From Cheilinus undulatus (lineage: Eukaryota > Chordata > Actinopteri > Labriformes > Labridae): 64,000 nt of DNA. The position numbers were made by a program, and so were the translations under genes. Location of the stretch: positions 41,857,874-41,921,873 of the forward strand of contig NC_054868.1 in the NCBI RefSeq assembly GCF_018320785.1, written 5' to 3'. Positions within the stretch are counted from its first letter, which is position 1. Every line of letters begins with the position of its first letter. The notes beneath the pieces are model-generated. The model was given only the letters and a program-made list of their open reading frames with translations, did no database searches and was not told the origin of the DNA. Below are positions 4,701 through 26,863 of the stretch, piece after piece.

Positions 4701-7700
4701 TGGGCTTGCCCTGATCTCCAGGTATTTCCCAAACAAGCACACACACACAAACTGCAAACACAAGAGCTTTTCTACATTGTTTGAATGATTTAAAAGGACA
4801 AGGAATCTAAAGTGGGATTGCATTTGATGTAGAAGTGTGTAGAGTTTTAACACACTTCAGATTTGAAAACATGAGGGTACACAATAAAAGGAAAGCACTG
4901 GACATTGCTTTAGCCCGGTAGCCCTGGGTTTGACTTTTACCCTAGGCCGTTTACTTTGTGTCATAACCTGCTCTCTGCTACTCTCTGCTGCCCTGTCCTC
5001 TCAGTAGGCCTGAAAGACCCAAAAATAATCTTAATAATAGAAATGAAAGTAGCACATCTCAGTAAAGAACACAGTTCAGAATTTCAAGAAGAAAAAAGTT
5101 GAATTGACACCACTGTGAAACTCAAAACTGGAACATGAATGCATTTCTTCCATTTTAGATAACATATATGAATTTAAAATACACCCATTGAAATCTTTGT
5201 GGTCTTCTTTCTAGTCCTCTCTATCCAGCTCTGTGAGTCAGCAGGGCTTGCTTAGGAAGGCTCCAGTGGCAGTTTCCACTCCAGCTCCAGTTCACACTTC
5301 CTCTGGGCTCAAAACCAACTCTGCTATGCTCAAACCCACTGCTCCAGAAGCTGCTACATCCTCAGTCACCGACAATGAGGTAACTGACACAAATATCCGA
5401 CACGTATCAGATCCTCATATTGCTGATTTATTAGTATTGTAAATCAAAATTCCAAAAATTAGATCTGCACTTTCAGGGCAGTACTGATTTATTTTTTCTT
5501 TGTGTGTGGTCAGCAGCTTTGGTCAGAGATGCGTCGCCATCAGATCTTGCGGGAAGAACTACGACAGCGCAGAAAGCACCTTGAGTCCCTGATGGCTGAA
5601 CATCAGAGGCGAAGTGGTCTCAATGACTCGCCTCGACGGATTGATGACCAAGAAGGCCTTGATACACCGTCGCAACCTGTTAGCAGGGATGAAAGGTAAA
5701 AGACACTCAGCTCAAAATATCACCAAATAGTTCTTTTCAACATTTCTTTTAATGTTTACAGTTAAAGGGAATGTAGAGAAGCCGCACATGAGCAACATTG
5801 CACTAGAACTCTTCAAACATGTTATTGTTCAATGGTGGTTATTTAAGCAACACTTTATACCACTTTGCCTTTGTTTTAATAGGACGATGGCTACCTGGGG
5901 TTCCACTCCTTGCCACCTTGATGATGATGAGGACGACGATGAGGATGATTATCACTCTGAGATGTGTGCAGAGGAGGAAGAAGAGCAGGAAGAATGTGCA
6001 GAGAGCAGCTCTGATGAAGACATCCATATCTACTCATCCAGCAGGAACCATGGCTCGTACAGTAACAGGAAGAACCATGGAAGGTGAGAAAAACTGAACA
6101 TATAAGACTGAAGAGACTACTGCTCTGATATATGTAACCTGCCTTTTAAACAATGCTCTATGTGGCTTTAGAAACCTGAAGCCTCCGCCAGCATTCTCAG
6201 GTGAAGTAAGTGGAAATCCATCCTTTTATAACAAGACAAATGCAAAACAGCAGCAGCAGTGCAGAAGTTTGAACCAGTCTATGAACCAGCATGGAGCTAT
6301 ACGACGGCAAGAGAACCTACGCTGGGCATCTGAGCTCTCCTTTGCAGAGGGCTCGTCGCACTGGCAGGAGCAGGTCAGCCAGCTGCAGAGACAGCTTGAC
6401 TTCAGCACCAGCATGTGTCAGACGCTCCTGCAGGACCAGCAGGTCAGTGCACTGAGCAAATACACAAAAACACACGGACACTCAATATGTTTACATGCTC
6501 AATTAAGTCACTGAGGCAGTATAACTAGACTTCAAAACAAAGACAAACTTTACATCTCTGTACATTTTGTAGATTTTCTCTACCTCACTTTAGGCACTTA
6601 TGCAATGTAGGCTATCCCTCATGCTTATTGTGATATTAAAAGATAGACAAAAATATGATTTCTGCTGCACAACACATTTATTCATATCCACTGTTGTGTC
6701 AAAGCCTGGCACAGGAACTGATGAAGGTGTGCAGATAACCTTATTCAGTCTGGGGTCAATTGTGTTGTGTAAATATAGATTTATCTACACCTGAATTATT
6801 TAGATGTCTTCGACTATGTTCATTGGGGTCATTATAGTTAGGGATTTATCATTAGTTTTTTCAACTGTGGTTTTTTTTTTTTTATGTAGCCTGTATACAG
6901 ACTGCTGTGTGAACAGGTCACTGTCCTGAACAGCTGAAATGAGCTGACAGCTGGGTTTATCCCCTTAACTATAGTCCAGCTTGTAAAACATAAATGTGAT
7001 ATGACCTTGTCCTTGATTGGAGTCTTCAGTGTCTTTAAACTTAGATGTAAAACTTTTCATTTTTCCTTTGGCACTCACTTCTGTGACTGGGCTGGTTACA
7101 AATAAACCCCTCAAGTTTTGCCTTTATAAAACCATCACCCCAAATACTTAAGAGCTCTTCACCTCACTGTCCCTTTACTGACTACCCCATCACTGCTGTC
7201 TTTCCTCTTTGTTTTTATTGACTGTGAGACTCCTGCCTCCACCGAATCTATTGTCCGCTGGTGTAGAATTGTAATGTGTTTTGCTCCACAATGGCAACTC
7301 AGAAAGAAGAAAAAAAAACCTTTGAACTGCAATGTGAATGTAGCTCTAGTCTGTTTTGAGAAATTTAATTTAGTTTGATTTGAGTTGGACCAACATGTTC
7401 ACAGGCATTTTAAAAGTCCAATTTTGTTCAGACTAGCACAATAAACTGACCTTTTTGAGCTACATGTAAACCGACTGACTGACCTCAGTAATATACTGTA
7501 GCTTGCTCATAAAATCTAAACACAATTTGAGTACTGTTTATTAATGATATTTGATTTGTCTTTTTAAAAATGATAAAATGGTTACCAGCCACCGTTGTCT
7601 TCTTTGCTCTCTGTCTTCCACAGTCACTCTCTTACATGTTACAAACCTTGCTGACTGGGCAGTATGGTATGTTACCCAACAATTTGTCATCGCCGCAAGT

Positions 7701-10700
7701 CCACCTGGTCATGTACCAGCTCAACCAGTGTTACACTCAGCTGACTTGGCAGCAAAATAATGTACAAAGGTAGTTAAAAATCCTTAAGATGAATTTTAGA
7801 AAACAACAATTTATCAGATTCATTTACTCACTTTTTTATTCTGCTAAACTTTTTTCTTTCAGGCTAAAGCAAGTCTTAAACGACCTCCTCCGGCAGCAGC
7901 AGCAGCAGCAGCAGACTTCGTCTTCAGCAGCAGGTTGGCAAACACAGAAGCATGGCTCAGCCCAAGAAACCAACTCTGCTCCCTCATCCTCCCCTGGTTT
8001 CTTCCCTTCCTTCTCGTCCAACCTGCAACCTCCAACCAACAACATGTCAACTGCTGCCTTATCCCCATTCCCTCCCAGTGAGACATACATATTTATAAGA
8101 TCTTATATGCCTTTATTATTATTCATCTAAGCAGTACTGTGCTAAAAATTTAGAATGTGGCTGAAAGTGTGGTGGATGCATTTTATCCTGTCTTCTAAGA
8201 ACAAATGAAGGTGTTTATTTTGGTTTTGCTGTGATATTTAGGAAATCAAGCAAAGAAAGATTGCTTAGAGTTTTTTAACATACATATCCATCACTCTTTC
8301 TAAAATTGCAGTTATTGAATACCTAAGTTAGAATTTGAAGTTTATTATGCTAACTGAACTTACTCTATACCAAAAATAAAGGTAAAACATCCACATATTT
8401 CTCGGAATGATTAACACCTTTTCCTCTATTTTCACTCTGCAGGCTTTAACTTATATCCCCTCTTCCCTGCTCCCATGGGTGATATCTCTCAAGGGGCAAC
8501 AGGTCAGGCAACTCCTGACCATCAGAAGCAGCAGCTTGACCCTAACACATCAATCAAAACAGAGTACATGAGTTTCCCTCCCCCTCTGCAGCGTTCTCCT
8601 CTAAACACCACTACAGAGAGAGGGTATGTCCATCAAACATCATATTTTCTAAAACAACAGACATTTATTTTTATTATCATTATTATTATTATTATTATTT
8701 TATTTATGTAGACATAATTTGTAAATTTTATTTGTTTTTAATATCCAGAGCTGCTGGCTGGCTTAAAACCTCGTACACAAACAACAACGTCCAGCATCGT
8801 CAGTCTAAAACAGATCCCCAGGAGTCCCCCACCTTCTCCCCGACTTTTGTCAACCGCCACGGCCGATCAGAAGAATTTGACAGAGTGTCACAGGAAAGCT
8901 TTAGCAGCATACCTGACCCTGTTGACCCAACCACCATCACAAAGACCTTTAAGACTGGACGTAAAGCCTCCGCACAAGCAAACCTGGCCTCCCGGAGTAA
9001 AACTCCCAATTGTAAGAGTCGGAGGAGGAGGAGCAAAGGGCAGAACAAGAACAGTGAAGGTAAAAAAAAAACGAAGATGGCTCTACCTCTATTATTGTAA
9101 ACAAATTACCAAAGATGTGATTGGGAGCAGCTTTGTTTGTGTTTTCCTTAGGCCATGAGAGTGACATTAGCAGCACTGCAGACTTTGCCCAGGAGAGAGC
9201 GCCACTGTCTCGTCAGAAGGATCAAAACAAAAGTCTGCTGGACAAGCTGACTCAAGAAAAACTGGACAGCAAGACTAAGCTTGGGAGTAAACGAAATGAC
9301 CTCTCTTCCGGTAGGGTTCAAGTTAATCTCATGACAGTTATACACCCCTCCTTTACCCCTCATGTCTCTGTGTTGTTTTTCTTTGTATGAGTGTAAAATC
9401 AGCATTATGTTTACCTTAAGTCTTGTCCTTTTTTATTTATTCTTTGCACATTTGCCATGACCACATATTTGATTTCAATTTTTGGTTACATTCTTTTGTT
9501 ATCACTTTAATTTGTCTTACTCACAGCCTATGCTTGGAGAACACCCTTCCTCTCTAACAGAATTGCATGCACAGAAGCACCAGGTAAACTCACAATGCCA
9601 AACCAGGCATCATTTGGCTCTTGTGTCTCCTGAACATCCCAAGCATGCTTTTCTTTTTGCCTTAAACTAAACCAAAGCCCCTGAATTTCATAGCAAACTT
9701 GTTTTTAACCCACATTTATCGTGCCGCCTGTATCTAATGCTATTGAATCTTGGACCTGCAGATGCAAGCAGTGACTTCTCACTCTTTGAGGCATTGAGGG
9801 AGACCATCTACTCTGAGGTGGCTACATTGATTTCCCAGAACGAGTCCCGCCCCCATTTTCTTATTGAACTCTTCCATGAGCTGCAGCTGCTCAATACAGA
9901 CTACTTACGGCAGAGGGCACTGTATTCCCTTCAGGTAATATTATACGGTACACATTTAACTACTATTGTCCCGATGGTATGCAACTGTTGAAATGAACAG
10001 AGCTGTGAAATGGGTGTTAGAGAAAAGTTATCTTACATTAGAATCTTTGAATCTAGAATGACGAGTTTTATCTATACAAACTGTCAAATTTGAAATTATT
10101 TGCAGTACAAAATTTGCGGTTGATTAAGGGTGAAGAAATTGAAATATATGTTGCTGTGAAACTTGGTTTACTGTTAGGCGGGAGATATGCTTGCTGTTTC
10201 ATCTTGTTTTATGGACATTTACTGCATCATGAGTGTTCTTGTAAAGATGCCTACCTGTACGTGACTTGTACCACTGGAGGATTCCTTTAGGGGGTACACC
10301 AGAGAGCTCAGGCAGTATACTACTATGGGATGCTTGGGATGTACACTACAAACAGACACTTGAAAATGGAATTATAATGTTAACGCTGAGATCAGGACTA
10401 GCACAATATTAACAACAGTAATTAATGGTAGAACTATATCAGCTCAGACTGATTACTGGTGGTCAGGACTCAACATCTGCACTTTTTTTTTTTTTTTTTT
10501 TAACATTTTGACCTGTGCATGGACATAACCCTTCTGATGTATTGGGTTCTTTAGTGCAGTGGTTCTCAAACTGGGGTCCGGGACCCCGGGGTCCCCGAGC
10601 CACAGTTTAGCGGTCCGCGAAATAATCTAAAATAAATTACTTAAGTCATTAAAAAGCAAATAAATACATATAGGAACCACAGGACCATAAAACAACCATA

Positions 10701-13700
10701 CTAAACCAAAAACAGCAACCAAAAACTCAGAAATGATTGTGACATATCACGTAAATCTAACAGTAGTCACGCATCAGTCACTTTGCTCCGGACACATTTG
10801 GTCCAGCTAGCAACTGTGGATAAATATTTTAGCACATCTACTTCATCAAGTGATGCTAGGCCCAAACCAGCTAAACTGAGAAAATATGATGACAGCTATC
10901 TCGAGTTTGGTTTTATAGAGAACAGATGGAAGGACAAGCAAGTGATGTGTGTTTTCATGTGAAGCCATAAAGCCCACCAAGCTACAGTGTAATCGGATAA
11001 CAAAGCATGCGGAATTTAAGGACAAAACAAAAGATTTTTCCCAACAAAAGGGTGAGGAACACATCTGCCAGAAAACACGAATGGCAAACCTGACCACAGC
11101 CTCAGAAAAAGCACAGAGGGCTTCTTATTTGGCTGCTCAAAGGATCGCAAAAAGTAAGAAGCCAAACTCAATTGGACAGAGCTTGTAGGTTGAAGAGTTT
11201 CAAACCTAGCATCTAGAAGTACAAATGGCAGTTAACATATGTTTAATCAGTGTGAGGATTTTGTGGGGATCCTTGGAAAATTTTCTGCCCCGTAAGGGGT
11301 CCCCAGCTCTGAAAAGTTTGAGAACCCCTGCTTTAGTGACTGTGTTTTATCAGTTTGTCTTAGTTGTTATTGTCTCTGCTCCTGAGTTGACTGTCACAAC
11401 CCCTACTCCTGTATACTGCCTCTATCACATATGCTCATACCTGGGGTTGACTTATACTGCTTTTTAAGGGCTGATAACAAAACTGATTAATAGCTCATCA
11501 GACTGATAACTGATATTTGGAACCGATATGCATGACATACGAAATGTAGCCTACTTAAGTGGCAAAAGCAAAATTGCATGATCAAAGGAGGACAATTAAC
11601 TATTTAGCCCTAGTTTTATCAGCATGAGAAATGGCACAGAACAACACAGTAGAAATGGGAAAATAGGAAGTGATGCCATATACTCACTGAGCACACATGC
11701 AACATCCAGCCATTCAGAGTGTGTTGTACAGGTACACCTCAAAAAGTTAGAATATCATGAAAAAGTTCAATGTTTTTTGTCACTCATTTCAGAAAGTGAA
11801 ACCCATATTATAGACTCATTACACATAGAGTGAAATATTTCAATCCTTTATTTCTTGAAATGTTGATGATTATGGCTTACAGATAATGAAAACCTAAACC
11901 CAGTTAACTTTGTGATTATTAACTTTATTGGCTATCTGTAAAATAAAATCCTGATATCAATTATTATCAATTATTATTATTTTTTTAGCTTTGGTAATGA
12001 TGTAACTTTGACAATCATGTGGATGAGAAAGAGATCTAAAAATCTAAAAATAGGTGGCTAGGCGAGAAATGTACCTATCAAGAAAGCTCAAGCAAAGTCC
12101 AAACATTAACTTGCCAAAGCACAACACTGCAACATTTTGCAAACATTGTTTGTTTTATGGAGATCTTGTGCTCTAGTGCCAGAGATCTAGTCTGACCTTT
12201 GGAGTCAACTGCAAGTGTAATTAGCTACAGCAGGTTTACCTGCACTTACTTCAGTAGTATTTACCCAGCAGGGAAACTCATTTCAATTTGATTGACTCAA
12301 AATTAAGGAAAAAAAAGTTTACAGAAATGACTATAAAAAATCCTTTGTATTAAGTTAAGATTTGTCAGGTCTGTCGTCAAGAGGAACAAAAGTTTCAAAC
12401 AGTTTAATGACTTGAAGGTTTTCCAATCATTTCTGTTGTGCTTCAGGCAGTCAGGGGATCAAAATGCTGATCAGCTTTGAAAACACAGCACAAAACAAAT
12501 TTGTGTCTACTTAAATGTTGATATATAATGGATTGGGTAGTTAGCTTCACTTTTATGCAGATGTGTCTTTAAGGAGACAAATAAATCATCATTAGATTAT
12601 CACTGATGGGTGCTGCTATGTCATTAGCATAGATAAGGCTCTGCATGTTTGTTCTCCACATAGTGTTTTACCTGTGTACCCAAAAACCTGCTGATATATG
12701 AGTGCTCATTACAGCTTTGATTATGAATGCAACACAAGTGGAAACCAGAGTGCTTCACATACTAAAGATCATTACCCTTGTTTAGGGACTCATTTCTACT
12801 GTATGTAGAATAGAAATAAAATGATACTAGACCATAAAAAACGCTTCTCCATCATTACAGTGTCTGTTTTCTCGATAAGGGCCTTGTTCTGAAAAACTGC
12901 CAAAAAATTGAACTTAGCATAGTAACAACAGTCCTTCCTTGTGTTCCTGGCAGGACATAGTGACCCGGCACCTAACAGAGAAGAGTGCAGCTGAGGACCA
13001 GTTGCCCCCTCTCGGCCCTGTGTCGTGGGCTGCAGGCTCTCAGTCTGAGCTCACACCCAGCGAGAGTCTGGCTACCAGTGATGCAGTAAGAGAGAAAGAC
13101 ATTATTGCTTCTCAGCATGGCTTTCTCACATGTCTCCACCAGTCCTGAGGACTTTTTATGAATCCTCACTATCATCCTCCCTCTGCTCTGTTTTAATCAC
13201 TTTTACTTGCCTCCTTCTCTATGTTTCAATACATCTTTCATTAGTTTCTTGTCTGCTTTCATCCTTCCTGGCCCTGTCCCTTTTCATCCTTCTACAACTC
13301 TCTTTATTCTCTGATTTTTAATTTCTCCTGCCCTCCTCTTCATTGTCTTTGAATTAAACTTGACAGCAAGACTTCAGAGGCCTGTCTGTTAAAAAAAAAG
13401 AGAGAGAATGACCCTCCTCTCTGCACGACTCTTTTGCCAGATCAGACATGTGTTCTTTGTTCTGGGCCAAAGTCCCTGGAGTTATGCTAATTGGCAGCAG
13501 GGCCTTTTGTCTGTCTAAATAAAGCCTTTGTTTAAGAATGATGGATGAAATGTCCAATTTTCCTCGTTAGGAGAAGCCACCAATGCTGTTTTTATCGCTT
13601 ATGGTGCAGTTTTTGTCTTGAATGTTTGAATGCTGTGGTGGACTCATAATAGACACTTGACCTATTCCAGGAGGTGGTGGAGAAAAACCTGAGGCTCACA

Positions 13701-16700
13701 CAGGACTCGGGGAAGAAGAGAGATGATGCAGAGTCTGTGGATAACGAAAGCACCATGTCAACCTCCTCCAACCTTGAACCATTTGCCAATGACGACTTGG
13801 GTAAAGTTTTGCATGTTGAAACAGTTAAATTTGTTGTGAAACAAGGGGCTGAAGCCTTTAAAATTGTGCACCTATAAACCTGTATCTACAACCTGACATA
13901 CTATTAAAATGTGTTGCTTACTGGCTTTTATTGTTATCAAACTTCACACTTTTTCTAGCAGAACTTCTCTGGGCTTTCTATGGAAAAGCAACAAAATTAC
14001 ACCACAGGATCAATACTATATGTCCAAAATAAATTTTTAAAAGTTAATTTATAAAACTCAGATTTTGGAAACTTGTTGACGTTGATCCTGTTGTGTAAAC
14101 TTGCTCTTAAATTGATATCCAGTAATGTTGTCCCTTTCTCTCGCTTCATTGATTTTTTAACTTTCTGGATGGCATTTCTCTCCTTTTTTCCCTGCTCACT
14201 GCCCTGCTCTCCCTTCTTTGCTGCTCTGATAGGAAACACGGTGATACATTTAGACAAGGCTCTGGCCAGGATTAGGGAGTATGAGCGCATGAAGCTTAAG
14301 GCTGAGTTTAACCCCTGCAATGCCAGCTCTGCAGGTGCAGGTGGCTCTGAGGTGTCAAATGCTGAACATACCTCTGCTAACTCTGCTGACCAAGCGGAAG
14401 GTACTGAATAAAAAAGCCTGCTTGAGTTCACCATGTGCAAATACTTACAGAAAATGTTGATCACCTGTGATTGGGTAGATTAAAAAGAAATGATGATGAT
14501 GTTGACATCTGTTACCAGGCGGAGCAGCCAGTGATGTGCGCTGCCCTCAGATTGACACCCAGCAGTTGGATCGTCAGATCAAAGCCATCATGACAGAAGT
14601 CATTCCTTTCCTCAAGGTGAGATGGGCAACTCAGGGAGCTGCAGCATGTATCATTAATATCTTTTTACTAGCTGTGCATGTGTATGTTTGTTTTTTTTTA
14701 TCAAAAATGGGGACAGTGCACATTAATTAACATTCACATTTAAATGTACCAGATTGTAGCAATAGGCCAATATCCATCTGTAGTCCCAGGCAGGTTGATG
14801 GTGCATGTGCACGTAAAACCTCATAACACACAGGTATCACAACAACAAGCAAAAGCCAAACAACAGCCTAAACTGTACATTACTCTCCTCATCTCTGGGA
14901 TTCTTGTTTTGAGTTGAGGACTCTGTTCAAGAACATGTATTTACTAATAATTAAACTGCTGTTTTTGCTCCCTGAATGAATTCCACATGACGAGGGAGAA
15001 AAGCTGTTAAAAGTGTCCCTGCTGGTTAACACTTCAAATTACTTGCAAAGCATTCACTGACAGTGTAAATCAGGAAGGCCACTTTAAATGGCTTTTCTCT
15101 CTCATAGTTTAAAATTGAACCATGAAATGAAAGGAGTTATTTGCTGTTTCCATCTTATGAAGTGCAGTTTCTGTTACAAAGTCACCTCCATTAGAAATAA
15201 CAAGCAAGCTGCACAAGTGGGCATGAGCATTTCCTGACTTACTGTGGTAGACTTCTCTACAATATGCACATTTGCTTGTTGCCTACTTTCTGTTACAATC
15301 ATGTGCTGTGTTTGAAGAAAAGGGTTTTCTGTACTAAAAAAGTTAATACTTGATATTTAAAAGTTTTGATGCTCATGGGGCGCGCCGGTAGTTGAGTGGT
15401 TAAGGTGCGCACCATGTACGCGGACAGCCCGGGTTCAAGTCTAGCCTGTGTACCATTTCCCGCATGTCTCTCCCCACTCTCTCCCCTGTTTCCCGAGTCT
15501 AACCACTGTCCTCCTCTATCTAATAAAGGCATGAAAAGGCCCAAAAATCAATCTTTAAAAAAAAAAAAAAAAAACAGTTTTGATGCTCAAATTGAATGTG
15601 GTCAAAACTTACTACCATTCTAAGTGTAAACAGTTATTAAATGAAGTTCCTCTGTAATAATGTTAATGTTTTTATTTTTATTAGGAGAACATGGATGAGG
15701 TTTGCTCCCTCCAGCTGCTGACATCCGTGCGGCGCATGGTCCTCACTCTCACCCAACAGAACGATGAGAGCAAAGAGTTTGTCCGCTTTTTTCACAGACA
15801 GCTTGGAGGCATATTGCAGGTATGACCGCTGCCAATATCTGGTCCCAGCCAAGTTTATGAAGATAAAAAACAAAACAAAGGAACTCTTTGACATTTCACT
15901 GTCTCTTTTCTTTCCAGGACTCTCTCAGTAAATTCGTGGGCCGCACTTTGAAGGACTGCGGGGAGGACCTCCTGGTGGAGATCTCCGAAATCCTCTTCAA
16001 TGAACTTGCATTCTTTAGGCTCATGCAGGATTTGGATAACAGCAGCAGCATTGCCTTGGCCGCCAAACACAAGAACAAGAAGAGGGTTGAGCAGCAGGTT
16101 AGTTCCCTATTCATGGCTTTTTGGGGGGTAAAATCATACGCTAGTTCCACGCTTAAATCAGTTTAAAAGAGGCTAATTTTGCTTTTGGTTTTAATGTATT
16201 CCTCTAATTAGGAAAACACAGACACTGGTGGAGATAAATCAGTTTCCCCAGCGTACACTGATGAAGACAAGGTCAGTCATTGAAGTACTGATAATGTAAT
16301 TGTCAATAGCAATTAGCGCTGCAGTAATTGGTTATACGATGATGTCTCTCTCTTTATTCCAGGACCAAGACGAGGCGGAGCAGGACGGTGATTCTACTCT
16401 AAAGGAGCATTACCTGCAGAAAGAGAGGAAGAACAGTGGGAGCAGTGAAGCTTCTGAGGCTGAAGAGGAAGAAGAGGACGAAGGGCAAGGACAAGAAATA
16501 CCTCTGTCTATCAGTAAGTTGAAATACTTGTCAATGAAATCAACTCAAATGAAATCAAAAGCTACTTTATCAAAGTTTTAGCCTAGGGTTGCACATATTG
16601 TAGAAATTTTTTTTTTTATTATTTTTTTTAATTGATCCTGTAAAATTTTTTATCATTTTTTAGAAATTGAATATTTATGTTATGGATTAAAGTAAATGTG

Positions 16701-19484
16701 GAAAAAGTTTGAGAATTATATATTTTTTTAAATATTTTTTTAACACCACAAAACTTAAGTATTTTAACAGGGGTGTGTAAACTTTGAATAGCACTGTGCA
16801 CATGCATATACATTCTTGCTTTAGTGTTTAACACTTGTCCCTTTTTTTCCCTTATGTAGGCCTCTCAAAAGCAGAGACTCAGGCTCTTACAAACTATGGC
16901 AGTGGAGAGGATGAGAATGAGGAGGAGGAAGTGGAGGAGTTTGAAGCTGGACCTGTTGATGTCCAAACCTCTTTGCAGGCATCTGCTGATGGACATGTGG
17001 AGCAGGAGGTCAGTGCTACAGTCAGGCATGGAGAGGTTTTCTTTAAATACATGACTATGACTTTAATGTTTTTAGTTGGTCTGACTTGTTTTTATTTCCT
17101 ACTTCAGGGCACAACACCCAGCAAAACCCAGGAGATCAAAACTGACCACAAGAGTCCAGAGAATGATGATGGTGAGGCCTTCCTCAGCGGAAAGTTTTCT
17201 CCTCCCTCTAAATGCCAATCTGACTTTTAGTCTCATGGAATTGCTGCATATCTAGACAGTTCATCAAACAAATGTTTCTTTGTTTTGTAGAAACCATCAA
17301 GTCAGCAGAGACTGTGGACTCCCCAGCAGAGGATTGTGACATGGCAGAGTGTCAGAGTCCTGAGAAGGAGACTAATGACAGAGCAACTACTGCTTCAGAG
17401 GGAGGCTCTACAGCCTCCCATGATCAGGACATCCCCAAAGAGCCCAACACCACAAGTAGCCCTGATACAGACTCCCCTGTGATGATCAACGTAGATGTAA
17501 GTTCAAGCCTCTAGATGATGAGTTTACCTGAACTTTTAAAATCAATGCTGTGGAATAAAAGCATCATGACTCAACCTGCCTTTTTGTACTGCAGGAGGTT
17601 GGCTCTGGGAACACCAGTCAGAAATCTGATGAAGAAGACTTTGTGAAGGTGGATGACTTGCCGCTTCAGCTTACAGTCATGTGTGAGGTGTGTAATAGAG
17701 AAGACATGAATATGTATTCTTATGAATTAAAGTAAAGTCACGGTTCAAAGTGTCTTCTAAAAATAACCTGTGTACTGTAATATTAGGAGGAGCTGCAGAA
17801 GAGAATAGTGGAGGAGCAGCAGAATAATAACCTGTCTGTGGAGATCCTGAATGGAAACACTGAATCGCTGACTGGGCTTGTGGGAAATGCTCAGGCTTTG
17901 AAGGAACCAGGTATCTATTAAGTAAATGTCACACCCACTTTCCACATTGTCTGTCTGTCCAGCATGCTGTACGTGCCATGCACTGGAGAGCAAATCACTC
18001 CATTGTCTAGTCAGTTTTAGGCTTTCCATGGCTTGCACTTCGATCTTAACCTGACAAGCCAGATAGACTGTTTCATAGCTATTGCAAAGATATATTTCAC
18101 ATTCATTTGGGAACGCTCCCATAGAAAGCATTTGGGAGGTGCAGGCCTTTTCAAAAAATTCTTGGAAGGTGATTGAATGTTCTGACACATTCATGATTGG
18201 CCAATCAGAGCAACAGGATAGAATGAGGTTGTACACAAGTGATTCTCCTGAGCTAAGAGGCTACCAGTAGTTTTTGAATGGTGGAGCTTCTCTGTGAATA
18301 GAATTTATGCCAAGGCCAGTTGGGAGATGTGCAGAAACATCTCATCTGCAAAGACAAGCTTGCAGTGTGGCTCTTTGCTCTTGTTTTAAAAAAACAATCC
18401 AGCTTCGATTAAATAGATCCTTTCCTACATCTATATCTGAGCTAATAGCTAGCGTAGCAGCAGCAAACCCATTCAGAAGCAGGCTGGGAAAAGAGCAAAA
18501 GCATCTTTTCTGTCATGAAAAGCTTTCAGTGTGGCTCTTTGTTCTTGCATTTATAAAGAAATGCTGTCCAGTTCTAACAAAAATGTATCTTTTGCTACAT
18601 CCAAGCTAATCACTCCGCTAGCAGTCATTATATACAGTATACCTTCTCACACTACAACTAACCCCTTTCCCCCATAGCGATCACAAACTAATGCCAAAGC
18701 AGGTTGTCATGAGAGTGCAAACATCTTTCTCATCAGAAAAAGCTTTAAATCTTTTTTCACACAGAAACGTGGCCCAGTTCTGGTAAAACTACAGCTACAG
18801 CTAATCCCTGCCCAAAGCTAACGCCTGTCTTGCTCTAGGAAAAAAGGTTGTAGCCGAACATTTTTAGACGTAGTTTTAGTTGCCAAAATGAACACTGTCC
18901 TTATGTCAACATCACATCACAGCAATGGCACATGCCACAAGTCATCAGTCGTCACAGATAGTAAGACGTCATGGATGTTGAGAAGTTAATCTCAGAGATG
19001 GAAAATTCCATGACTTTATGTGAAACCACACATCCTTTCTTGATAACAAACCTTTTAATTTTATAATGTACTTACCTGCATTTGAAGCAAAAGTATCAGA
19101 ATAATATGGAAATGAACAGCAAATCAACCCAGAAAGGCAAATGAACAGATACTTTACACGTTGTTCTCACTATACATGGTTGTTAACACATGATCTATCA
19201 ATTCCCTAGCTTGTAGATCTTAAGAGATCTTAGGTCTCCAGCTTCTCTGGGCAGTGTCCCAAAACCACGACATGGTCAGACTGTGTGGAAATTATTGTTA
19301 GTGGATTTGTTTGTGTAGTGACCAAATACGACAGAAAAGCCAAACAGGGTCTCCTGTTGAGTTTATAAAACCATAAAAATATTTATTTCTGTCACTGTGC
19401 ATGCATTAATCAAAAGTCTAACTCATCACTAAAATCTGTTTTTCTTTGTCTTTTTCAGAAATGGTTGGTGCCCAGGGGTTGTAA
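1767..19484 (+). CDS. pcm1: Pericentriolar material 1 protein, 3' two-thirds (5' exons outside window)
   Basis: PCM1 is the scaffold of centriolar satellites and is needed for centrosome protein delivery and cilium formation (family knowledge). I place 29 exons, all GT-AG with matching phases: 1767-1933, 2063-2292, 4341-4483, 4592-4721, 5215-5379, 5517-5695, 5883-6083, 6172-6442, 7624-7769, 7863-8077, 8443-8623, 8749-9059, 9152-9310, 9527-9583, 9762-9934, 12954-13085, 13671-13800, 14233-14400, 14519-14616, 15685-15819, 15918-16097, 16212-16271, 16363-16513, 16860-17008, 17108-17171, 17291-17496, 17595-17687, 17787-17910, 19459-19484 (about 1,480 codons). Recognisable PCM1 blocks include AAKQ/TAKQKLRQLQ-type coiled coil (exon 2), KLYEEKLRQQKQELKQL (exon 4), LWSEMRRHQILREELRQRR (exon 6), the acidic run in exon 7, DPVDPTTITKTFKT (exon 12), the strongly conserved ALRETIYSEVATLISQNE (exon 15) and LTNYGSGEDENE (exon 24). 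The protein ends EMVGAQGL. The first exon here starts mid-codon, so roughly the first 600 residues are encoded to the left. Confidence 0.96.
2950..3290 (+). mobile_element. LINE reverse-transcriptase fragment
   Basis: Translation gives DFLTDRNQRVSVH and, after a gap, LIKFSDDTVLLSLL, which contains the FxDD-type polymerase core in the diverged form common to fish L2/Rex-like LINEs. A further LNALKP/ELIFDF-like piece follows at 3200-3245. The copy is short, rearranged and dead. It lies in the pcm1 intron 2293-4340, where I see nothing else of note. Confidence 0.55.
4905..5040 (+). mobile_element. Degraded tRNA-derived SINE
   Basis: The layout resembles the SINE at 15376: a B-box-like ccctgggtttgactttt, then ctctgctgccctgtcctctc and a tail aggcctgaaagacccaaaaat. 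It is old and diverged and lies in a pcm1 intron. Confidence 0.45.
6443..7623. other. pcm1 intron, nothing recognised
   Basis: This is AT-rich intronic sequence with a T run near 6870. No repeat family or reading frame could be assigned. Confidence 0.5.
7894..7914 (+). repeat. Coding (CAG)7 tract in pcm1
   Basis: Seven consecutive CAG codons in pcm1 exon 7863-8077 encode a glutamine run directly after the coiled-coil LNDLLRQ segment. Uninterrupted CAG tracts are prone to length change, so this is a likely site of length polymorphism. Confidence 0.85.
8657..8705. repeat. TTA/ATT microsatellite
   Basis: Imperfect att/tta repeats (ttattattattattattatt core) lie in the pcm1 intron 8624-8748. 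Confidence 0.85.
10557..11330 (+). mobile_element. Non-autonomous hAT element with BED-finger transposase remnant
   Basis: The ends cagtggttctcaaac and gtttgagaacccctg are inverted repeats. A perfect 8-bp target duplication, ctttagtg, flanks it at 10549-10556 and 11331-11338. About 10949-11185 encodes a remnant of a hAT/ZBED-type transposase N terminus (CEAIKPTKLQCNRITKHAEF, then KTKDFSQQKGEEHI), resembling the tail of a BED-type zinc finger. Its first Cys-x2-Cys part and the catalytic region are missing. It is a 774-bp internally deleted copy in a pcm1 intron. Confidence 0.88.
11729..11900. mobile_element. Solo terminal repeat of a Tc1-like element
   Basis: It begins at a TA with caggtacacctcaaaaag and runs closely parallel to the left terminal repeat of the element at 49457 (gttcaatgttttttgtcac, ttacacatagagtgaaa, gttgatgattatggcttac). 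The transposase and right end are gone. Confidence 0.82.
11901..12953. other. pcm1 intron, nothing recognised
   Basis: This intronic sequence is rich in A/T runs, with no assigned repeat, up to the acceptor at 12952-12953. Confidence 0.5.
14617..15361. other. pcm1 intron, nothing recognised
   Basis: This is intronic sequence before the SINE at 15376. No repeat or coding signal was identified. Confidence 0.5.
15376..15575 (+). mobile_element. tRNA-derived SINE with target duplication
   Basis: The head ggggcgcgccggtagttgag contains an A-box-like part (gttgagtggttaagg). A B box, ggttcaagtct, is at 15432-15442. A tRNA-unrelated body ending in gcatgaaaaggccc and a poly(A) tail follow. The 14-bp duplication agttttgatgctca flanks it at 15362-15375 and 15576-15589, showing target-primed insertion. 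This is the best preserved SINE of the window. Confidence 0.9.
17930..18300. repeat. Probable interspersed repeat in the last pcm1 intron
   Basis: Phrases such as cctgacaagccagatagact and gattggccaatcagagcaac look like a common fish non-autonomous element from memory. I could not define ends or a target duplication. Confidence 0.35.
18330..18850. repeat. Degenerate tandem repeat of about 170 bp, three units
   Basis: Three units begin with related phrases: cagtgtggctctttgctctt (18363), cagtgtggctctttgttctt (18529) and a weaker ttaaatcttttttcacac unit (18740). Each is followed by a tccag-tt phrase and a ctacatc/ctac-agctaat phrase. The units are diverged and lie in the last pcm1 intron. Confidence 0.55.
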
Positions 19485-20115
19485 AGATTTATTTTGATAT
19501 CTGAAGATATACTGTTTTTTAGCAACACTATACTTAAACCCTCAATCAGTTCTGTCTATATGATTGTTGATTCTTTATCTGCTACTTTAAAGGAGCAAAG
19601 GCTCGTAATATTTGTCATAAAATAGCTGTGATCCCGAAACACAACGGATAAAACACCAATGCATAATCAACACTTAGTTTCATTTATTCCTGAATGTTAA
19701 TGTGATTTGTGGGTAATCTGGGGAGGGATATGTCTCTATGCTGCTGATGACCGTTTGTTAACAGTCAAGCTTTTATGAATCTCTATAGTAATGAAACTGC
19801 TCTGCAGATCCGCCTTAGCCCTGTTCTTGGTTCTGGGATCAGTCCAATCTAAGTTGTGTTTTTTATTTTTTAAATGTTTTATTTGTCTTTGCCTGGCCTT
19901 AATGCTGTATAGCTCGTCTCTTCTGCACTTGATTCCTAATTATTAAGAGATTACAGTCAGACTGCTTAATTGTTTCTCCATTTATTTTCTTTTTAGAGCG
20001 TAGGTTCAACTTTTATCCCTTCAGACACATCTTTATATATTTTTTGTTATTTCCATTGACTCTGCTGTAATAAAATGTTAACAACAGTTAAAAGTTTTAA
20101 ATAATAAAATACAGG
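19485..20115 (+). other. pcm1 3' untranslated region with two poly(A) signals
   Basis: The stretch after the pcm1 stop (19482-19484) has no reading frame of note. Two canonical AATAAA hexamers occur at 20079-20084 and 20103-20108, which gives a plausible end near 20120-20140. Homology to the second copy at 25970-26330 covers roughly 19690-20140. Confidence 0.7.
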
Positions 20116-20839
20116 ACCTTTCAAACATGGTGGTGTGCTGACTCATTTTGCTTTTTGGGGATCTTCTGGGCTGTCTGGTCATGTCTAATGCTCACTTTTA
20201 TTTATATGTCATGCTCACTTATTCTGAAACTCATCAAGAAAATCTGCCTACTGAAAAGTGCATTCTATAGTTTCTCTTTTTTTCTGAACTAGGGAATGAT
20301 GTAATTAAAACATGAACTGGCAAATAATCTATAAATAACATAAGGTTTTGGACAAATTATGTTTGTGGCGTTAAATATGGTAGGACTGCTTGTCTGTCCT
20401 GCAACCTGTTTTCTTAAAAATGATGCTGTGGAGTTTTTAGTAAGTATGTGTGGTGATTTACAAAAAATAGAACTTGCTTTTTAAGTGAAACAGCACAAAA
20501 GTGACATCATTTGATGCCACTTTTCCAAAAAACGATGGAACAAATCTAAAGGTTTGAGAGGCTTAGACAAGCACACAAGGTTGAACTTCTCACTCTTTTA
20601 GGTGAACTTCAACAGTTAAGTAACATGAGTGGGCATGAAGAGCATCCCAATGAAGATGACTAAACACAATAAATGGGGAGGGCTGATGGCATTTGTTTAA
20701 AAGATGAATGATACAACAGCTAGAGTAGAGCCGAAACACCCATGTTAACAGATGGGACACTGGCCACACTGGAAAATAAAGATACACAATAACTATTGTT
20801 CTTCTGAAACGTGTCTTAATACTTAGTTTTTATAATGCT

Positions 20840-21370
20840 GATTTATATCCAATAGCAGGCCCACCTACAGAAATGGCCGGGACCCTTAAAGACCCAGCAG
20901 GGGCCCTCCCCAGATGTGTTTTAATTATATAATCCCATGGGTGCTGAATCAGTAGTGCTATTGCCTGCCTGAGGCTAACATTCCCCTCCTTGGCCTGACT
21001 TTGATTAGCCTTTGCTGGGGTGAAATATCCCAACTAGCTGCCTCCTTTTCTCCTCCTTTCTGTTCTGCCATCCCAACCTGTGCACAGGATTTGGATCCTG
21101 CATTACCGGTTTAATAGCCCTCTTCACAATGTTAACTTTTTTAAAAAGTCTTTTATAGATGTAATAAAGCAGAGCCTAGGTTTTTGAAACCGGTTGCATT
21201 TAAATGAAGCACCCGATGGGCCCCCGATGAGACCGGTCCCCAGAAGGCCTTCCCTTCCCCCTCAGTGGTGGGGGAGGGGAGTTTGGTTCTAATTAGTTGA
21301 TTAGCAAGGGGTAACCGTAATGATTGACAGATGTGTAGACAAATCCGCTGAGAGGTAACAAACAGAGCCA
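20840..21370. other. Non-coding GC-mixed block upstream of the chimeric gene
   Basis: This block is less AT-rich than its flanks and free of recognised repeats. It contains a TGATTGACAG box (21321-21330), the consensus of PBX-MEIS/PREP homeodomain complexes, and a homeodomain-like taattagttgattag (about 21290-21304). It could be a conserved non-coding element. Conservation cannot be judged here. Confidence 0.3.
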
Positions 21371-21479
21371 CTGAAGTCGTTCAGATTTGTAGAACATTAG
21401 GTGTCTGCTTTAAACAGAAAAAACCCAATCTGTTTTACTGCAGAATCTCACTACTTTAGAATATTTTGGCGTTTTATCA

Positions 21480-21607
21480 GTGAGTTAAGTGAGTGTTGTT
21501 CTAAAAGAAGGGGCGTGACGCTCTACCAGCCGACCCTACTGCGCAAACTCCGACTAGCAAAATATGTCAGCGCCCTGCTCAACGGGAGGGGGTGGACACG
21601 CGTCGAA
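21480..21607 (+). promoter_or_regulatory. CpG-richer leader/promoter candidate of the chimeric gene
   Basis: The 130 bases before the chimeric ATG are visibly richer in CG dinucleotides (gggGCGtgaCGctc, ctgCGcaaactcCGac, acaCGCGtCGaaatgg) than the AT-rich flanks. The frame of the ATG stays open upstream to 21401, so a longer N terminus cannot be excluded. No TATA box is obvious. The call rests on composition and position only. Confidence 0.35.
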
Positions 21608-24600
21608 ATGGGAACACCGCACAGTGAAAGACTACGCTTGAAAATAGTGCAACAATTTCAAAATAATGTCCCTCAGCGTGAAATTGCAAAGAATTTGGGG
21701 ATGTCGGCGTCTACCGTGCACAATATCATTAAAAGATTCAGAGAATCCGGAGGCATCACTGTTCGCAAGGGACAAGGCCGAAAACCAATACTGGATGTCC
21801 GAGAGCTTCGGGCACTCAAACAGCACTGCATTCAAAACAGACACGATACTGTGGTGGATATAACTGCCTGGGCTCAGAAACACTTCAAAAAAACACTGTC
21901 TGTAAACACGGTTCGTCGCTACATCCAAAAATGTAAGTGAAAACCGTTAGTCTATGTAAGTGAATCGGTGTTTTGGTGTTTCGAGTGACCATGCTAACTG
22001 GTGGCATCCAGAAGAATGCGTCTGTGGTTGTCATAGTTACAACGGATTTTTTAAATCTTTGATTCCTATTGCAAATACTATTGTGTGTAATCTTCCGTTT
22101 TAAGCATATCTGACAAGTATAATTTGACTAAACAAAAACTGAAAAAGAGGACTTTAATAGCCCCTTTAACTACGACAACCACAGACGCTTTCGGCGGAAA
22201 GTCGCCAGTTAGCACGGTAACTTGTTGAACCGATACACCGGCTAATTGATAAAGTAAGTTTATCACTCTGTAAGTCTGTCCTGTGACGTTTTGTCTTTTG
22301 TTTGCATTGAGTTTTGTTCAGGTTTCTCACCTCGCTTCACCTTCCCCCTCCCCTCTCAGGTGTTTCCGCTTTTTTTCGTTCGAAAGAATCTTTAGCAAAC
22401 TACGGCAGTGGAGAGGATGAAAATGAGATGGAAACGGAGGAGTCTATAGCTGGATCTGTTGACGTCCAAACTCAGGCATCTGCTGTGGTAAAGAGGGAGC
22501 TGGATGTCATTGTTAAAATCAGGCTTTAAGATCCTCACTTGGATTATTCAAACCATTTTTAAAGTCTAACCCGTGTACTTGTGCCACATTTTAGAAGTCA
22601 ACGCAAAATGAAACCCAAGAGACAAACAGTGGCCAGAGGAGTGCTGGGAATCATGAGGATGAGGCTTCTTCTGTGGAGAGTTCCCTCACTAACACTGACA
22701 AAAGCAAGGTCAGTGAAGTACTTCCAATGTAAATGTCAGCCCAAATACTGCTGCAAATTTGTGCTGTCAATTGATGTCTCTCTCTTTATTCTAGGACCAA
22801 GAAGAGGCTGGAGGGGATTCCGCTCTCCAGGAGCATTACCTTCATAAGAGGAGGAAAACCAGCCAGAGAAGTGAGATTGAAAAGGAAGGAGAAGGATCTT
22901 CAGTTAGTAAGTAAAATGGTTTAAAGGGGCACTCCGATGTTTGCCTCTCTAACAGGCCTGATTTCATTGTAGTCCAACGCCCTTTTCAGACTCCATAACA
23001 GTGCTGCAGTGAGGCTCTGCTGTCATTACACCTTTGTACTTAAGCATTGCATCAGCAACAGTGAAATCCTGGATTTCCACTTGTTTGAGTTTACGTTGCA
23101 TTGCCGCAGTGCAGCAATGCTGCAGTGCAGAATCACAGAAGGCAAGGCGTGTAAACACAGCTTCACAAAAGCCTTTTTCACACATGCACATCATTTATTT
23201 TTTGAAGTAGGTTTCTTTTGTGATTCAAGAGATTATGAGTAGTATGGTTCTTATGCACAGAGAAAAATGGTCTGTCTTATGGTGTAAACCAAAACCAAAC
23301 TAAGTCATTGCCTTATAAAGAATAGTTAAAGCACAGAATCCTGTTTTAAGTATGTTCAACATAAAGACAAAGATCATATGGTTCACAAGTACACTCAGCA
23401 ACTTAACCTTTAGCTTTTAGTTGCAGGTTAAACGCCACATCAGTGGACAGAGTTTATTTGTTTTATGAGCTTGGGGAATGTGAGGATGACAGTCATTTTT
23501 AGTTTTACTGTCCCATTTGTGATGACTTGAAGGATGTACAGTATGTTTTGGAAAAATGTCTGCAATTAATGCTGTTTTTGTTCTGGTTGGACGAGAATGA
23601 AAAAGTTGACTTGTGTTTTAAAGAAGGAACTTTTTGTTGCATATTTTTGTCTCCCCATACCAGAGACCAAAGTTGAACTTCTTGACCATCATTCTCCAAG
23701 GTGTGTTTGACACAGAAAAAAACACCATAGTAGAGCACAAGTGAAACATGATGGAAGCAGCTACATGCTTTGAGGCTGTTTTTTCCTCCACTGGAACTGT
23801 TTGGCTATGGTTAGGGTGGATTGAATTATGAAAAGTTTCAAATGCCATTTGTGTTTTTGGCACAAAAGCTTTGGGTATCTGCTAGAAAGCAGGAGACAAA
23901 GAGGAGCTTTACCTTTCAGCATGACAACAACCCAGAGCATACCAAATCTATTAATGAATGGCTTCACTAGAAGATGATATAAGTTTAGGACTGACCTATA
24001 TAGAGTCCAGACCTTAATCTCGATATAAAAAAAAAAATATCTGAGGGGTTTCCTGAAGAGGGCTATGCACCGGAACTGCCCTCGTGATTGGGCAGATTTT
24101 GAACACTTGAAAGGAAGAGTGGGCAAACTTTGATTGATGAGAGAGGCTACTCTGACAGACTCCTAAAGATGTATTTATATAAATACTGGGTGACATTAAA
24201 GGTGGAAAATGTTCATAAATGACACATCGCCATTTTTTAATCATAAAAATGTGGCATTTTAACATAGATGTGAAGACTTTAGAGCCACTGAATGAGCAGA
24301 TTGAGTTTTTTCCACTGGATGTTGAGCATGCTGCTGAATTAGTCGTGTGCAATGAAAAGGATGCTCTACCCCCCCCCCGATTCTACAGTGCCTTAATGTA
24401 CTCACCCCCTGTGACATTTTCCCTCAAGATCAATCATGATCGATATATTTTTGCTTTTTAACAAATAAAAAATCTTTTAATGTCAAAGTTGGAACAGATT
24501 TCTACAAAGTAAATGTCAATTGAATAAACATATGCAACATGGAGTGATTGCATAATGATCTAATTCAAGGTTCAAAGGTGCATCCACTAAATACTGACTT

Positions 24601-25451
24601 GAAGGTGGTGAATATTTATGCAGAGATTTATTTTGCATTGCATATTTTTAGTTGCAGATATCTGTTTTCACATTGACATTAAAGAGTTTTTTTCTTTTTT
24701 GGTAAAGAATTCCTAATTTTATTGACCATGATTGATTTATAAAATCAATAAAAGGGTAAAACATCCAGGGGGTGAATACTTTTTGTAGGCACTGTAAATG
24801 CCATCAAAATAAATTGATTAAAAAAGTTAAAGTAAAGTAATGTGTAATGTCATTAGTGCAGCAAAACTGATTTGAACAAAATAAACAAAAAAAAAAATCC
24901 TAAAATAAACTTTAAAAATCAATTGTTGTAACTTTTTTCCCACCTTTATGCACAGATATACTCACACATACCATGCATACCATAACGTTAATGTAACACA
25001 TATGCCCCTGTGCTTTTTTCCCTCCAGAACCTCACAGATCAGAGCCTCAGGTTTTGTCAAACAACAGCAGCAGGGAGGAGGAGGATGAAGAGTGTGAAGC
25101 TGGACCTGCTGACGTCCAAAAGTCTTTGCAGGAGTCAGCTGATCAAAATATGGAGGAGGAGGTCAGTGTTTTAGTCAAGCACAGAATATCTTCTGTTAAT
25201 CACAGAGTCTTGAATGCTTTGACTCATTTTTCTTAATCTTTGTATAACCGTTCAGGTGACAACATCCAACAAAATCCAGGAGACCAAAGCTGACCTAAAC
25301 AGTCAAGACGGATATGTTGGTGAGTTGTTTTTTCTCCTGAAAGTTTCTTCAAATTTTGTCCATTATCTGTCATGAAGACTTTTTTCTTTGTTTTCTAGAT
25401 ATCCACAGCATGGATGTGGCCATTGATTTTTCAACAAAAGCGCATCATTGA
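21608..25451 (+). CDS. Tc1 transposase DNA-binding domain fused to duplicated PCM1 C-terminal exons (chimeric gene)
   Basis: Predicted exons: 21608-21932, 22360-22487 (or to 22505), 22595-22708, 22795-22906, 25028-25161, 25256-25319, 25399-25451; 309 residues with the shorter exon 2. The start ATG has A at -3 and G at +4. Residues 1-108 hold a Tc1-type bipartite paired-like domain: first helix-turn-helix (IVQQF, REIAKNLGMSASTVHNII), a basic GQGRKP linker, second helix-turn-helix (DITAWAQKHF, SVNTVRRYIQK). The DDE catalytic half is absent. The exon ends in t|GTAAGT, phase 1. Exon 2 begins in the matching phase and reads SKESLANYGSGEDENE, then DVQTQAS, paralogous to pcm1 exon 24. Later exons match pcm1 exons 22, 23, 24 and 25, and exon 6 has exactly the length (64 nt) and phase of pcm1 exon 25. 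The last exon gives a 17-residue tail ending in a stop. No frameshift or in-frame stop interrupts any exon. Inference: a DNA-binding protein carrying an acidic PCM1-derived tail. A transcribed pseudogene or a non-expressed chance arrangement is the alternative. Confidence 0.68.
21960..22245. mobile_element. Palindromic MITE-like element in intron 1 of the chimeric gene
   Basis: Two arms facing each other form a long imperfect inverted repeat. The left arm, about 21965-22043, contains atgctaactgg and gcgtctgtggttgtcatagtt. The right arm, about 22165-22235, contains actacgacaaccacagacgc and ccagttagcacggt. The loop between is AT-rich and non-coding. Exact ends and target duplication are unclear, so the superfamily is not assigned. 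Confidence 0.6.
23600..24200 (+). pseudogene. Tc1-like transposase remnant
   Basis: About 23910-23965 encodes FQHDNNPEHTKSINEWL, the region around the second catalytic Asp of Tc1 transposases. Downstream, gagggctatgcaccgg and gggcagattttgaacac match the C-terminal part of a fish Tc1 family from memory. Stops and frameshifts are present. It lies in intron 4 of the chimeric gene. Confidence 0.5.
24386..24794. mobile_element. Internally deleted Tc1-like MITE
   Basis: The left end cagtgccttaatgtactcac and right end tactttttgtaggcactg are inverted repeats, each followed outside by the TA target dinucleotide (24384-24385 and 24795-24796). The 409-bp copy has no transposase and lies in intron 4 of the chimeric gene. 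Confidence 0.8.
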
Positions 25452-25564
25452 AAAAGATTGATACTGATAAAGTAAAGTCTCCTCTTTTCAAAAACACTAT
25501 CCTTGCTCTCTTAATCTGTTCTTTATGTATGATTGTTTTTTGTACCTCTGCTTATTTAAGGTGC

Positions 25565-25950
25565 ACAGGCTTGTCAGAATCAGAATCATTTATTGTTATT
25601 GTACAAGATACAACAAAATTGTTTGTAGTTCATTCAGTACACGTGCAGTTCAATTCGGTGCAATTATCATTTATTATTGAAACTGCTCTGGGATATGTGC
25701 TGTTTTTCAGTCTGTTAGTTTTGGTTCATATTGTCCTGAACCGTCTTCCTGAGGGTAGCAGCTGGAACAGGTGATGTGCTGGGTGGGATGAGTCCTTCAG
25801 GGTGCTCAGGGCCTTCCTGTGGCAGCAGGACCTGAACAGCTCCTCTAAGGAGAGGAGAGCACAGCCAGTGATTTTCTGTGCTGTGTTGATGACTCTCTGG
25901 AGGGCTGTCTTCTCCTGAGCAGCGCAGCTGGAAAACCATGTCATGTCATG
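25565..25950 (-). mobile_element. 3' end of an L2/CR1-like LINE
   Basis: On the - strand, about 25944-25726 translates to the C-terminal reverse-transcriptase tail typical of fish L2-like LINEs (ALQRVINTAQKITGC, LEELFRSCCHRKALSTLKD, HPAHHLFQLLPSGRR). The - strand 3' end terminates near 25568-25590 in the ATTCTGATTCTGA-type tail of this group. It is 5'-truncated and starts with a short tcatg microsatellite. It lies inside the presumed 3'UTR of the chimeric gene, in antisense. Confidence 0.78.
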
Positions 25951-25969
25951 TCATGTCTGTCATGTGAAT

Positions 25970-26335
25970 TTGAGACAGCAGACAAAATGTATCACTGTTA
26001 ATGTTAAGGTTAGTGTTTGTAATCTGGGGAGGGCCTGTCTTTTTTATTACAGTTAGATTTTGTTGAATCTGTGGTAATGAAAATGTTCTTCAGATAAGCC
26101 TTAGCCCTGTTCTTGGTTCTGGAATCAATCTGACCTAAGTTGTGTTTTTTTCCAATATTTTGTTTGTCTTTGCCTGGCCTTAATGCTTAATATCTCGTCT
26201 CTGTAATGATATCTTTTTGTATACTGTTTGTTCTGTTGTCTCCATTGGTTATGCTGTAGTTAAAATGTTGGATACAATTATAACTTTTGAAGAATGAAAT
26301 ACTGGACTTTTCAAATATGGTGGTGTGTTGACCTG
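25970..26335 (+). other. Diverged copy of the pcm1 3' untranslated region
   Basis: Blocks such as gtaatctggggaggg, gccttagccctgttcttggt, ctaagttgtgtttttt, tttgcctggccttaatgct and tggtggtgtg recur in the same order as at 19710-20135. The duplication behind the chimeric gene therefore included the end of the parental transcript. Both parental AATAAA hexamers are altered here (gtagttaaaatg and agaatgaaat). Confidence 0.85.
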
Positions 26336-26863
26336 TTTTGTGTGCGAGTGATCTCATGTTGTGAACTGTTTGAGTTTGTTTAATGCTCTTGTGTTGGGCC
26401 TTTCTTCAGACATCTGGCTCATCATTTCTCAAAACTACTCTGTTGAGTGAATTTTATATTTGCACTTTTTAGATGAGATCATTCATGTGTGCACATTCAC
26501 ACTAGGGGGAGGAAAAAGTGACACATGCTGTCAAAACTTAAAATAGATTTTTATTGTTTCACTGATAAAATCCTGTAAAGGCCTATGCATGCTTGTCATA
26601 TCACAAGATGTTTGCATAAACAGTAAGTGCTTTATCGTGGCTTTAATCAGTATTTGCACATATAATTTTAGCAGCGTCAGAACAGACAAAACCTCGCACC
26701 CCCTTAAGATCTTTGGCACCCCCCTGGGGAGTCCCGGACCCCAGGTTGGGAACCAATGATGTACACCACAACTGACATCACTAAGATTTCATCCATGTTT
26801 TATAATCTATGCTTCAACCTTAATTCCTGGTATTAAAATATACCTGTGTCTGGTATCCTTTTA
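26336..26863. other. Intergenic spacer with a hAT-like end fragment
   Basis: About 26700-26755 holds a single hAT-type terminus (ggaccccaggttgggaacca) without a visible partner. The rest shows nothing recognisable. Confidence 0.4.

Follow-up and report, generated by a model that had tools for sequence, protein, structure and literature searches.

The question raised by the locus described here is whether an exon resembling the DNA-binding half of a Tc1-type transposase, which lies just upstream of a partial duplicate of the PCM1 gene, forms a gene together with the exons of that duplicate. The locus occupies positions 21608-25451 of a 64,000-nucleotide stretch of the Cheilinus undulatus genome (NC_054868.1, positions 41,857,874 to 41,921,873 of the forward strand), which as a whole is referred to as the window. 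The original prediction had proposed an in-frame splice fusion of a transposase DNA-binding domain with duplicated PCM1 exons, and this reading survived our analysis, being consistent with the substitution pattern of exon 1, the CpG (cytosine-guanine dinucleotide) island around it, the lack of flanking transposon homology, and an open PCM1-type frame. Judging from the sequence, we consider it likely that this is a genuine host-transposase fusion gene in which selection acts mainly on DNA binding.

The candidate gene consists of seven exons (21608-25451) separated by six GT-AG introns with matching phases, and it would encode 309 amino acids followed by TGA. This model was re-derived here as first predicted, with GTAAGT in phase 1 at 21932, an acceptor at 22360, a product of 309 residues and a stop at 25449-25451. 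Splice sites were scored with a weight matrix. The donor at 21932 reaches 8.9, within the parent PCM1 range of 5.5-9.0, and the acceptor at 22360 reaches 14.7, the range for parent acceptors being 3.0-15.2; this acceptor is the best within 21940-22600; equally high scores are reached by 0.04% and 0.006% of window positions, respectively. Intron 1 also holds a donor-like site at 22253 with a slightly higher score (9.1), and an alternative exon-2 donor at 22505, weaker than GTAAAG, keeps the frame. None of the 36 transposon copies in the aligned stretch carries GTAAGT at the donor position. The claim that all downstream exons are PCM1-derived with conserved splice sites was borne out for the GT-AG sites and the phases, but exon 3 is a hybrid, the exon-2 donor is weak, and the last exon, like the 5' part of exon 2, aligns poorly to PCM1. 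A phase match by itself is a one-in-three chance event; it is in its substitution pattern, its CpG island and the coincidence of homology limits with exon limits that the locus goes beyond chance.

Exon 1 matches the Pfam domains HTH_23 (48 bits) and HTH_32 (39 bits) over their cut-offs, with the transposase-specific domains HTH_SB (23) and HTH_Tnp_Tc3_2 (18) remaining under theirs, and its assignment to the Tc1 type therefore rests on its genomic relatives. These were sought in the genome of this single species (1.17 Gb). The DNA search returned exon 1 plus 39 other scored matches with 72-76% identity (the best 40 of 1,618 first-look candidates), and in the protein search the best other match was 60% identical to exon 1 (among the best 150 of 11,623 first-look candidates). 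Because the family consensus beyond exon 1 runs into a Tc1-type catalytic frame containing LWSDESKF, exon 1 can be identified as the DNA-binding half of a Tc1-type transposase. Consensus residues are kept at 77 of 108 positions over the whole domain, and at 13 of 14 and 7 of 8 positions in the recognition-type helices H3 and H6. An AlphaFold single-sequence model of residues 1-108 consists of six helices, three on each side of a loose linker (mean predicted local distance difference test, pLDDT, 79), and when this model was searched with Foldseek, ranks 1, 3 and 4 were taken by the Pax5 paired domain, the Tc3 DNA-binding domain and the Pax6 paired domain (E 0.03-0.08). A single weak match, 41 residues long, came from a search of viral contigs and none from a search of genome contigs, while the best PDB match by sequence (E 9e-5) was to an unrelated CRISPR-repeat-binding protein.

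Exon 1 was compared with the 42 distinct copies of the source family contained in the retrieved loci, which had been chosen as the best matches to exon 1. Relative to their own majority consensus, the copies are 13% divergent on average and carry 78 in-frame stops in total; at least one in-frame stop is present in 37 of the 42 and a frameshift in 19, and two have neither. Exon 1, which differs from the family consensus by 23%, has no stops and no indels. Neutral simulations, which counted stops only and took the family consensus as the ancestor of exon 1 and the parent exons as that of the tail, left exon 1 stop-free in 2.9% of runs at this divergence. The 73 differences of exon 1 are distributed 20/11/42 over the three codon positions, compared with means of 16.3/12.6/13.4 in the copies (third-position excess, P 1.9e-5), and 37 of them are silent as opposed to 27% in the copies (P 1.6e-5). 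The ratio of nonsynonymous to synonymous substitution rates (dN/dS) against the consensus is 0.22 (0.12-0.39), or 0.19 (0.10-0.34) when CpG sites are restored in the consensus; the corresponding ratio of proportions (pN/pS) is 0.80-0.81 for the pooled copies, none of which is as low as exon 1. Of the 11 changes seen in exon 1 but in none of the copies, third positions hold 8 (P 0.009). Taken separately from the PCM1 part, the transposase part is thus not neutral (0.19-0.22 against the family consensus), and these values are signs that the amino acids of exon 1 may have been kept by purifying selection while the related copies decayed.

Transposon homology ends near the ATG and just beyond the splice donor. 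The 260-nt upstream family consensus was not found in 21300-21607 (p 0.22), and the downstream consensus, which covers the catalytic DDE part, was unmatched both in 21933-22360 (p 0.39) and in 21933-25400 (p 0.17). The idea that exon 1 is part of a whole transposon was rejected, as neither the catalytic part nor the upstream flank was found. In simulations flanks remain detectable up to about 45% divergence, and the proportion of silent differences (pS) in exon 1 is 0.48-0.50. An old capture would agree with these values, with neutral sites near saturation and the amino acids of exon 1 alone persisting, or else this fragment may be all that ever arrived, without flanks. Exon 1 has a longer terminal branch (0.263) than any copy (mean 0.137, maximum 0.251). 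In intron 4, at 23850-24170, the translation judged by eye contains a frame resembling a Tc1-type catalytic remnant (FQHDNNPEHTKSINEWLH...SPDLN) with stops. A common origin of this remnant, near 23.9-24.2 kb, with exon 1 was rejected: it lies past three PCM1-derived exons, and the consensus match has p 0.17.

The CpG observed/expected ratio (o/e) is about 1 across 21.3-22.5 kb, and the island extends into exon 2. In exon 1 itself it is 0.93, compared with a mean of 0.14 and a maximum of 0.48 in the 42 copies; in a context of about 1 kb it is 0.97, compared with a mean of 0.18 and a maximum of 0.38 for the copies, whose contexts are the middle kilobase of each locus and overlap the copies without being centred on each of them. 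As a positive control, an island with an o/e of 1.0-1.1 was found directly before the first coding exon of PCM1. A young transposon was rejected as the source of the island around exon 1, since a Tc1-type element in the same window whose repeats are 88-91% similar has an o/e of 0.20 and the 42 relatives are low as well.

The spliced fusion product matches the Pfam domain PCM1_C with 50.4 bits (cut-off 27.4; profile positions 328-473 of 628), and 45 acidic and 19 basic residues among 200 agree, together with this match, with the acidic PCM1-type tail that had been predicted. In what follows E_a to E_d denote parental PCM1 exons. Identity to the parent is 66-78% in E_c and E_d, compared with 54-56% for the intron between them, and E_b, E_d and the second E_c have each changed in net length by a multiple of three. 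About 190 PCM1-derived codons are open, for which the simulated stop-free probability is 0.05 to 0.001 at distances of 0.15 to 0.375. The pooled dN/dS between parent and duplicate is 0.47 (0.29-0.73), a figure that includes constraint on the parent. A basic cluster, KRRK, is encoded at residues 207-210; the motif K[KR]x[KR] is absent from the parent tail compared.

Several observations weigh against the fusion gene. Its tail is open but barely constrained in its amino acids: dN/dS between duplicate copies 1 and 2 is 0.73 (0.29-1.70), the tail differences fall 44/47/58 on the three codon positions (P 0.09), and E_b is 62% identical to the parent, less than the preceding intron (72%). Neutrality was not rejected by two dN/dS tests on the tail. 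A separate look at the PCM1 part upholds its open frame and finds little amino-acid constraint in it; the selection signal is therefore carried by the DNA-binding half. In exon 1 the excess of silent changes becomes modest when CpG sites are excluded (28 silent and 34 replacement changes, compared with 392 and 894 in the copies; P 0.017), and 5 silent changes among the 11 private ones are not significant (P 0.15). The source element was under selection while active, and therefore some of the silent divergence of exon 1, and part of its low dN/dS, may date from before the capture; the selection test cannot separate changes before capture from those after it. The exon-2 donor GTAAAG scores 4.6, the lowest of the duplicate's six. 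Finally, the AlphaFold model of residues 1-108 has a predicted template modelling score (pTM) of 0.39, and Foldseek returned nothing for it at E 0.001, the best E being 0.03.

Three other explanations of the locus were weighed against the fusion gene. Reading through the donor to a TGA at 21938-21940 would yield a stand-alone domesticated DNA-binding protein of about 110 residues, in which case the PCM1 exons would be a relic next to it or belong to a minor splice form. All the selection and CpG evidence concerns exon 1, the in-frame TGA comes two codons past the last complete shared codon, and the tail is weakly constrained, as such a protein would have it; nevertheless, a stand-alone protein accounts neither for a near-consensus GTAAGT exactly at the domain end, absent from all 36 copies examined, nor for the matching phase of the best acceptor of 21940-22600, nor for some 190 PCM1-derived codons still being open (neutral probability of no stop, 0.001-0.05), and we regard it as improbable. 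To the same degree we doubt that there is no gene at all and that exon 1 is a chance-intact fragment beside a decaying partial PCM1 duplicate, its silent changes coming from an active sister subfamily. The tail, nearly unconstrained as in a relic, has remained without stops, and a CpG island is unexpected at a dead fragment, given the contexts of the copies.

The sister-subfamily explanation draws on two copies, L025 and L039, which share 13 and 11 of the 73 exon 1 differences (copy median 6) and group with exon 1 at a weak support of 0.55. However, after removal of the differences common to the five most similar copies, 22 of the remaining 39 are still at third positions (P 0.0025), although the silent share is 17 of 39. 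Intact fragments do occur (2 of 42 copies), and with many thousand fragments genome-wide (the 11,623 first-look candidates) some would be in frame with something, but a young fragment should retain its flanks, and none are detectable. The remaining explanation, that the island drives a non-coding transcript or a short PCM1-tail transcript from exon 2, with the transposase exon being 5' untranslated or skipped, could use an in-frame ATG in exon 2 (ENEMETEES) and agrees with the island reaching that exon; as it leaves the conserved amino acids of exon 1 unexplained, we give it very little credence.

In the sequence, a Tc1-type fragment carrying an ATG and the whole bipartite helix-turn-helix domain lies in a CpG island upstream of a partial tandem PCM1 duplicate, and its domain-end donor matches in phase the strong acceptor by which the duplicated PCM1 exons begin. 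If the fusion gene is genuine, its action may be pictured as follows: transcription would start in the CpG island, and exon 1 would be spliced to the PCM1-derived exons; the 309-residue protein would enter the nucleus via the candidate signal KRRK; the inherited recognition helices would bind DNA, at transposon ends or elsewhere; and the acidic disordered tail would affect transcription or be merely tolerated. As the domain is conserved and the tail drifts, the function under selection may be DNA binding, perhaps simple site occupancy. A more specific version, which we put forward only tentatively, is that of a fish-specific regulator for which the ends of the extinct Tc1 transposon it came from still serve as ready-made genomic sites, with its DNA-binding half under selection, its PCM1 tail a drifting acidic segment, and a nuclear signal gained. 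The LC3-interacting region (LIR) by which human PCM1 binds GABARAP, a motif close to the C terminus, is EDFVKV (PMC5526835, PMC6499816). The parent PCM1 contains EEDFVKV, which is absent from the 309-residue product. Lacking this GABARAP-binding LIR and the rest of PCM1, the fusion product should not act as PCM1.

The features of the locus are given in the table. A PCM1-like N-terminal coding sequence, taken by this likeness to be the start of the gene, begins about 8 kb upstream of the window; four parent exons singly, as well as the spliced parent tail, match PCM1_C. The partial duplicate of the PCM1 3' end, at 22.36-26.35 kb, comprises exons E_a to E_d, the position of the last exon and parts of the 3' region, with 72-83% identity to the parent across BLAST stretches. 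Its exon order is E_c, hybrid E_d/E_a, E_b, E_c, E_d and last exon; since the E_c/E_d pair occurs twice, the duplicated unit was itself repeated once. Exon 3 (22595-22708) merges parts of two PCM1 exons over a parental intron and is, by its composition, apparently a trace of unequal exchange inside the tandem array. The existence of further copies of the fusion was rejected, since the 200-residue tail matched the genome four times, always at the fusion locus; as this search did not return the parent PCM1 exons either, distant copies could be missed by it.

Features of the PCM1 region and of the candidate fusion gene (window coordinates)
Feature	Position	Strand	Remarks
Parent PCM1 gene	2047..19484, extends upstream beyond window	+	Pfam PCM1_C matches; stop at 19484
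Parent PCM1, last eight coding exons	16212-19484	+	
Parent PCM1 exon with EEDFVKV LIR	17595-17687	+	
CpG island around exon 1, candidate promoter	21100..22500	.	o/e ~0.9-1.1 in core, window mean 0.30
Exon 1, Tc1-type transposase bipartite helix-turn-helix DNA-binding domain	21608..21932	+	325 nt, residues 1-108 plus 1 nt, ends in phase 1
Intron 1, GTAAGT...CTCTCAG	21933..22359	+	contains hairpin-like inverted repeat 21966-22050/22156-22240
Exon 2, PCM1 exon E_c copy 1 (NYGSGEDENE)	22360..22487	+	weak donor GTAAAG
Exon 3, hybrid of PCM1 E_d (5' part) and E_a (3' part)	22595..22708	+	
Exon 4, PCM1 exon E_b, encodes basic cluster KRRK	22795..22906	+	
Exon 5, PCM1 exon E_c copy 2	25028..25161	+	
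Exon 6, PCM1 exon E_d copy 2	25256..25319	+	
Exon 7, last coding exon with TGA	25399..25451	+	position of parent's last exon; aligns poorly
3' region of duplicate	25452..26350	+	stretches 73-83% identical to parent PCM1 3' region

A few other observations were made in the window. The 3' regions of PCM1 (19782-20150) and of the duplicate (26068-26340) are 77-83% identical, exceeding most coding parts, and a conserved element of the 3' untranslated region is perhaps the source of this identity. The inverted repeat of intron 1 (21966-22240) is CpG-rich, with 85-nt arms that are 73% complementary, and is possibly a small hairpin element. CpG o/e values above 0.8 are also found at 35.6-36.5 kb and 61.0-61.5 kb, the former belonging to the second strong CpG island of the window (35301-36600, o/e up to 1.11). 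A Tc1-type element at 49452-50990 has terminal repeats that are about 89% alike and a frame with an HTH_Tnp_Tc3_2 domain (41.5 bits); one more repeat copy of it lies at 11726-11894.

If the gene is real, it would extend splicing-based transposase capture to a fish and to a host partner lacking any effector domain, and it would be a fusion whose halves differ in constraint, the domain being kept and the tail drifting. Comparing a captured exon with decayed members of its source family, by codon-position pattern, CpG content and homology limits, also provides a one-genome test for such fusions.

Transposase capture is said to have been described in tetrapods by Cosby and colleagues, KRABINER being a case, with a KRAB-like effector domain as the host part. 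SETMAR and CSB-PGBD3 begin with the host part and retain more of the transposase. The fish gene differs from these two in keeping the DNA-binding half only and in placing it first. Both are named as fusions of transposase sequence with a host gene in PMC12062965, which also summarises tetrapod fusions in which splicing joins a transposase DNA-binding domain to host exons (Cosby et al. 2021). The locus described here resembles the latter in joining a transposase DNA-binding domain to host exons by what is here predicted splicing; it differs in being from a fish, in having a Tc1-type domain first, in having the truncated tail of a centrosomal scaffold and not a KRAB-like effector as its host part, and in being known here from its sequence alone. 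The F-box A2 genes of Caenorhabditis, a multicopy worm family, have captured a Tc1/mariner helix-turn-helix domain, which a section heading of the same source describes as uninvolved in the process tested there (PMC12062965). The same kind of domain would thus have been captured by a host gene in both cases, the fish gene differing in its single locus and its PCM1 tail. Among the papers listed by literature searches, judged by titles and the starts of abstracts, none concerns a PCM1-transposase fusion, in agreement with the original prediction, which knew of none. Relative to the parent PCM1, exons E_a to E_d and the 3' region are homologous, whereas the fusion gene has a DNA-binding domain and contains neither the LIR exon nor any of the upstream PCM1 exons. 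Splicing-based transposase capture has thus already been described in tetrapods and worms, and the combination of PCM1 with a transposase would be new as far as the literature listings show.

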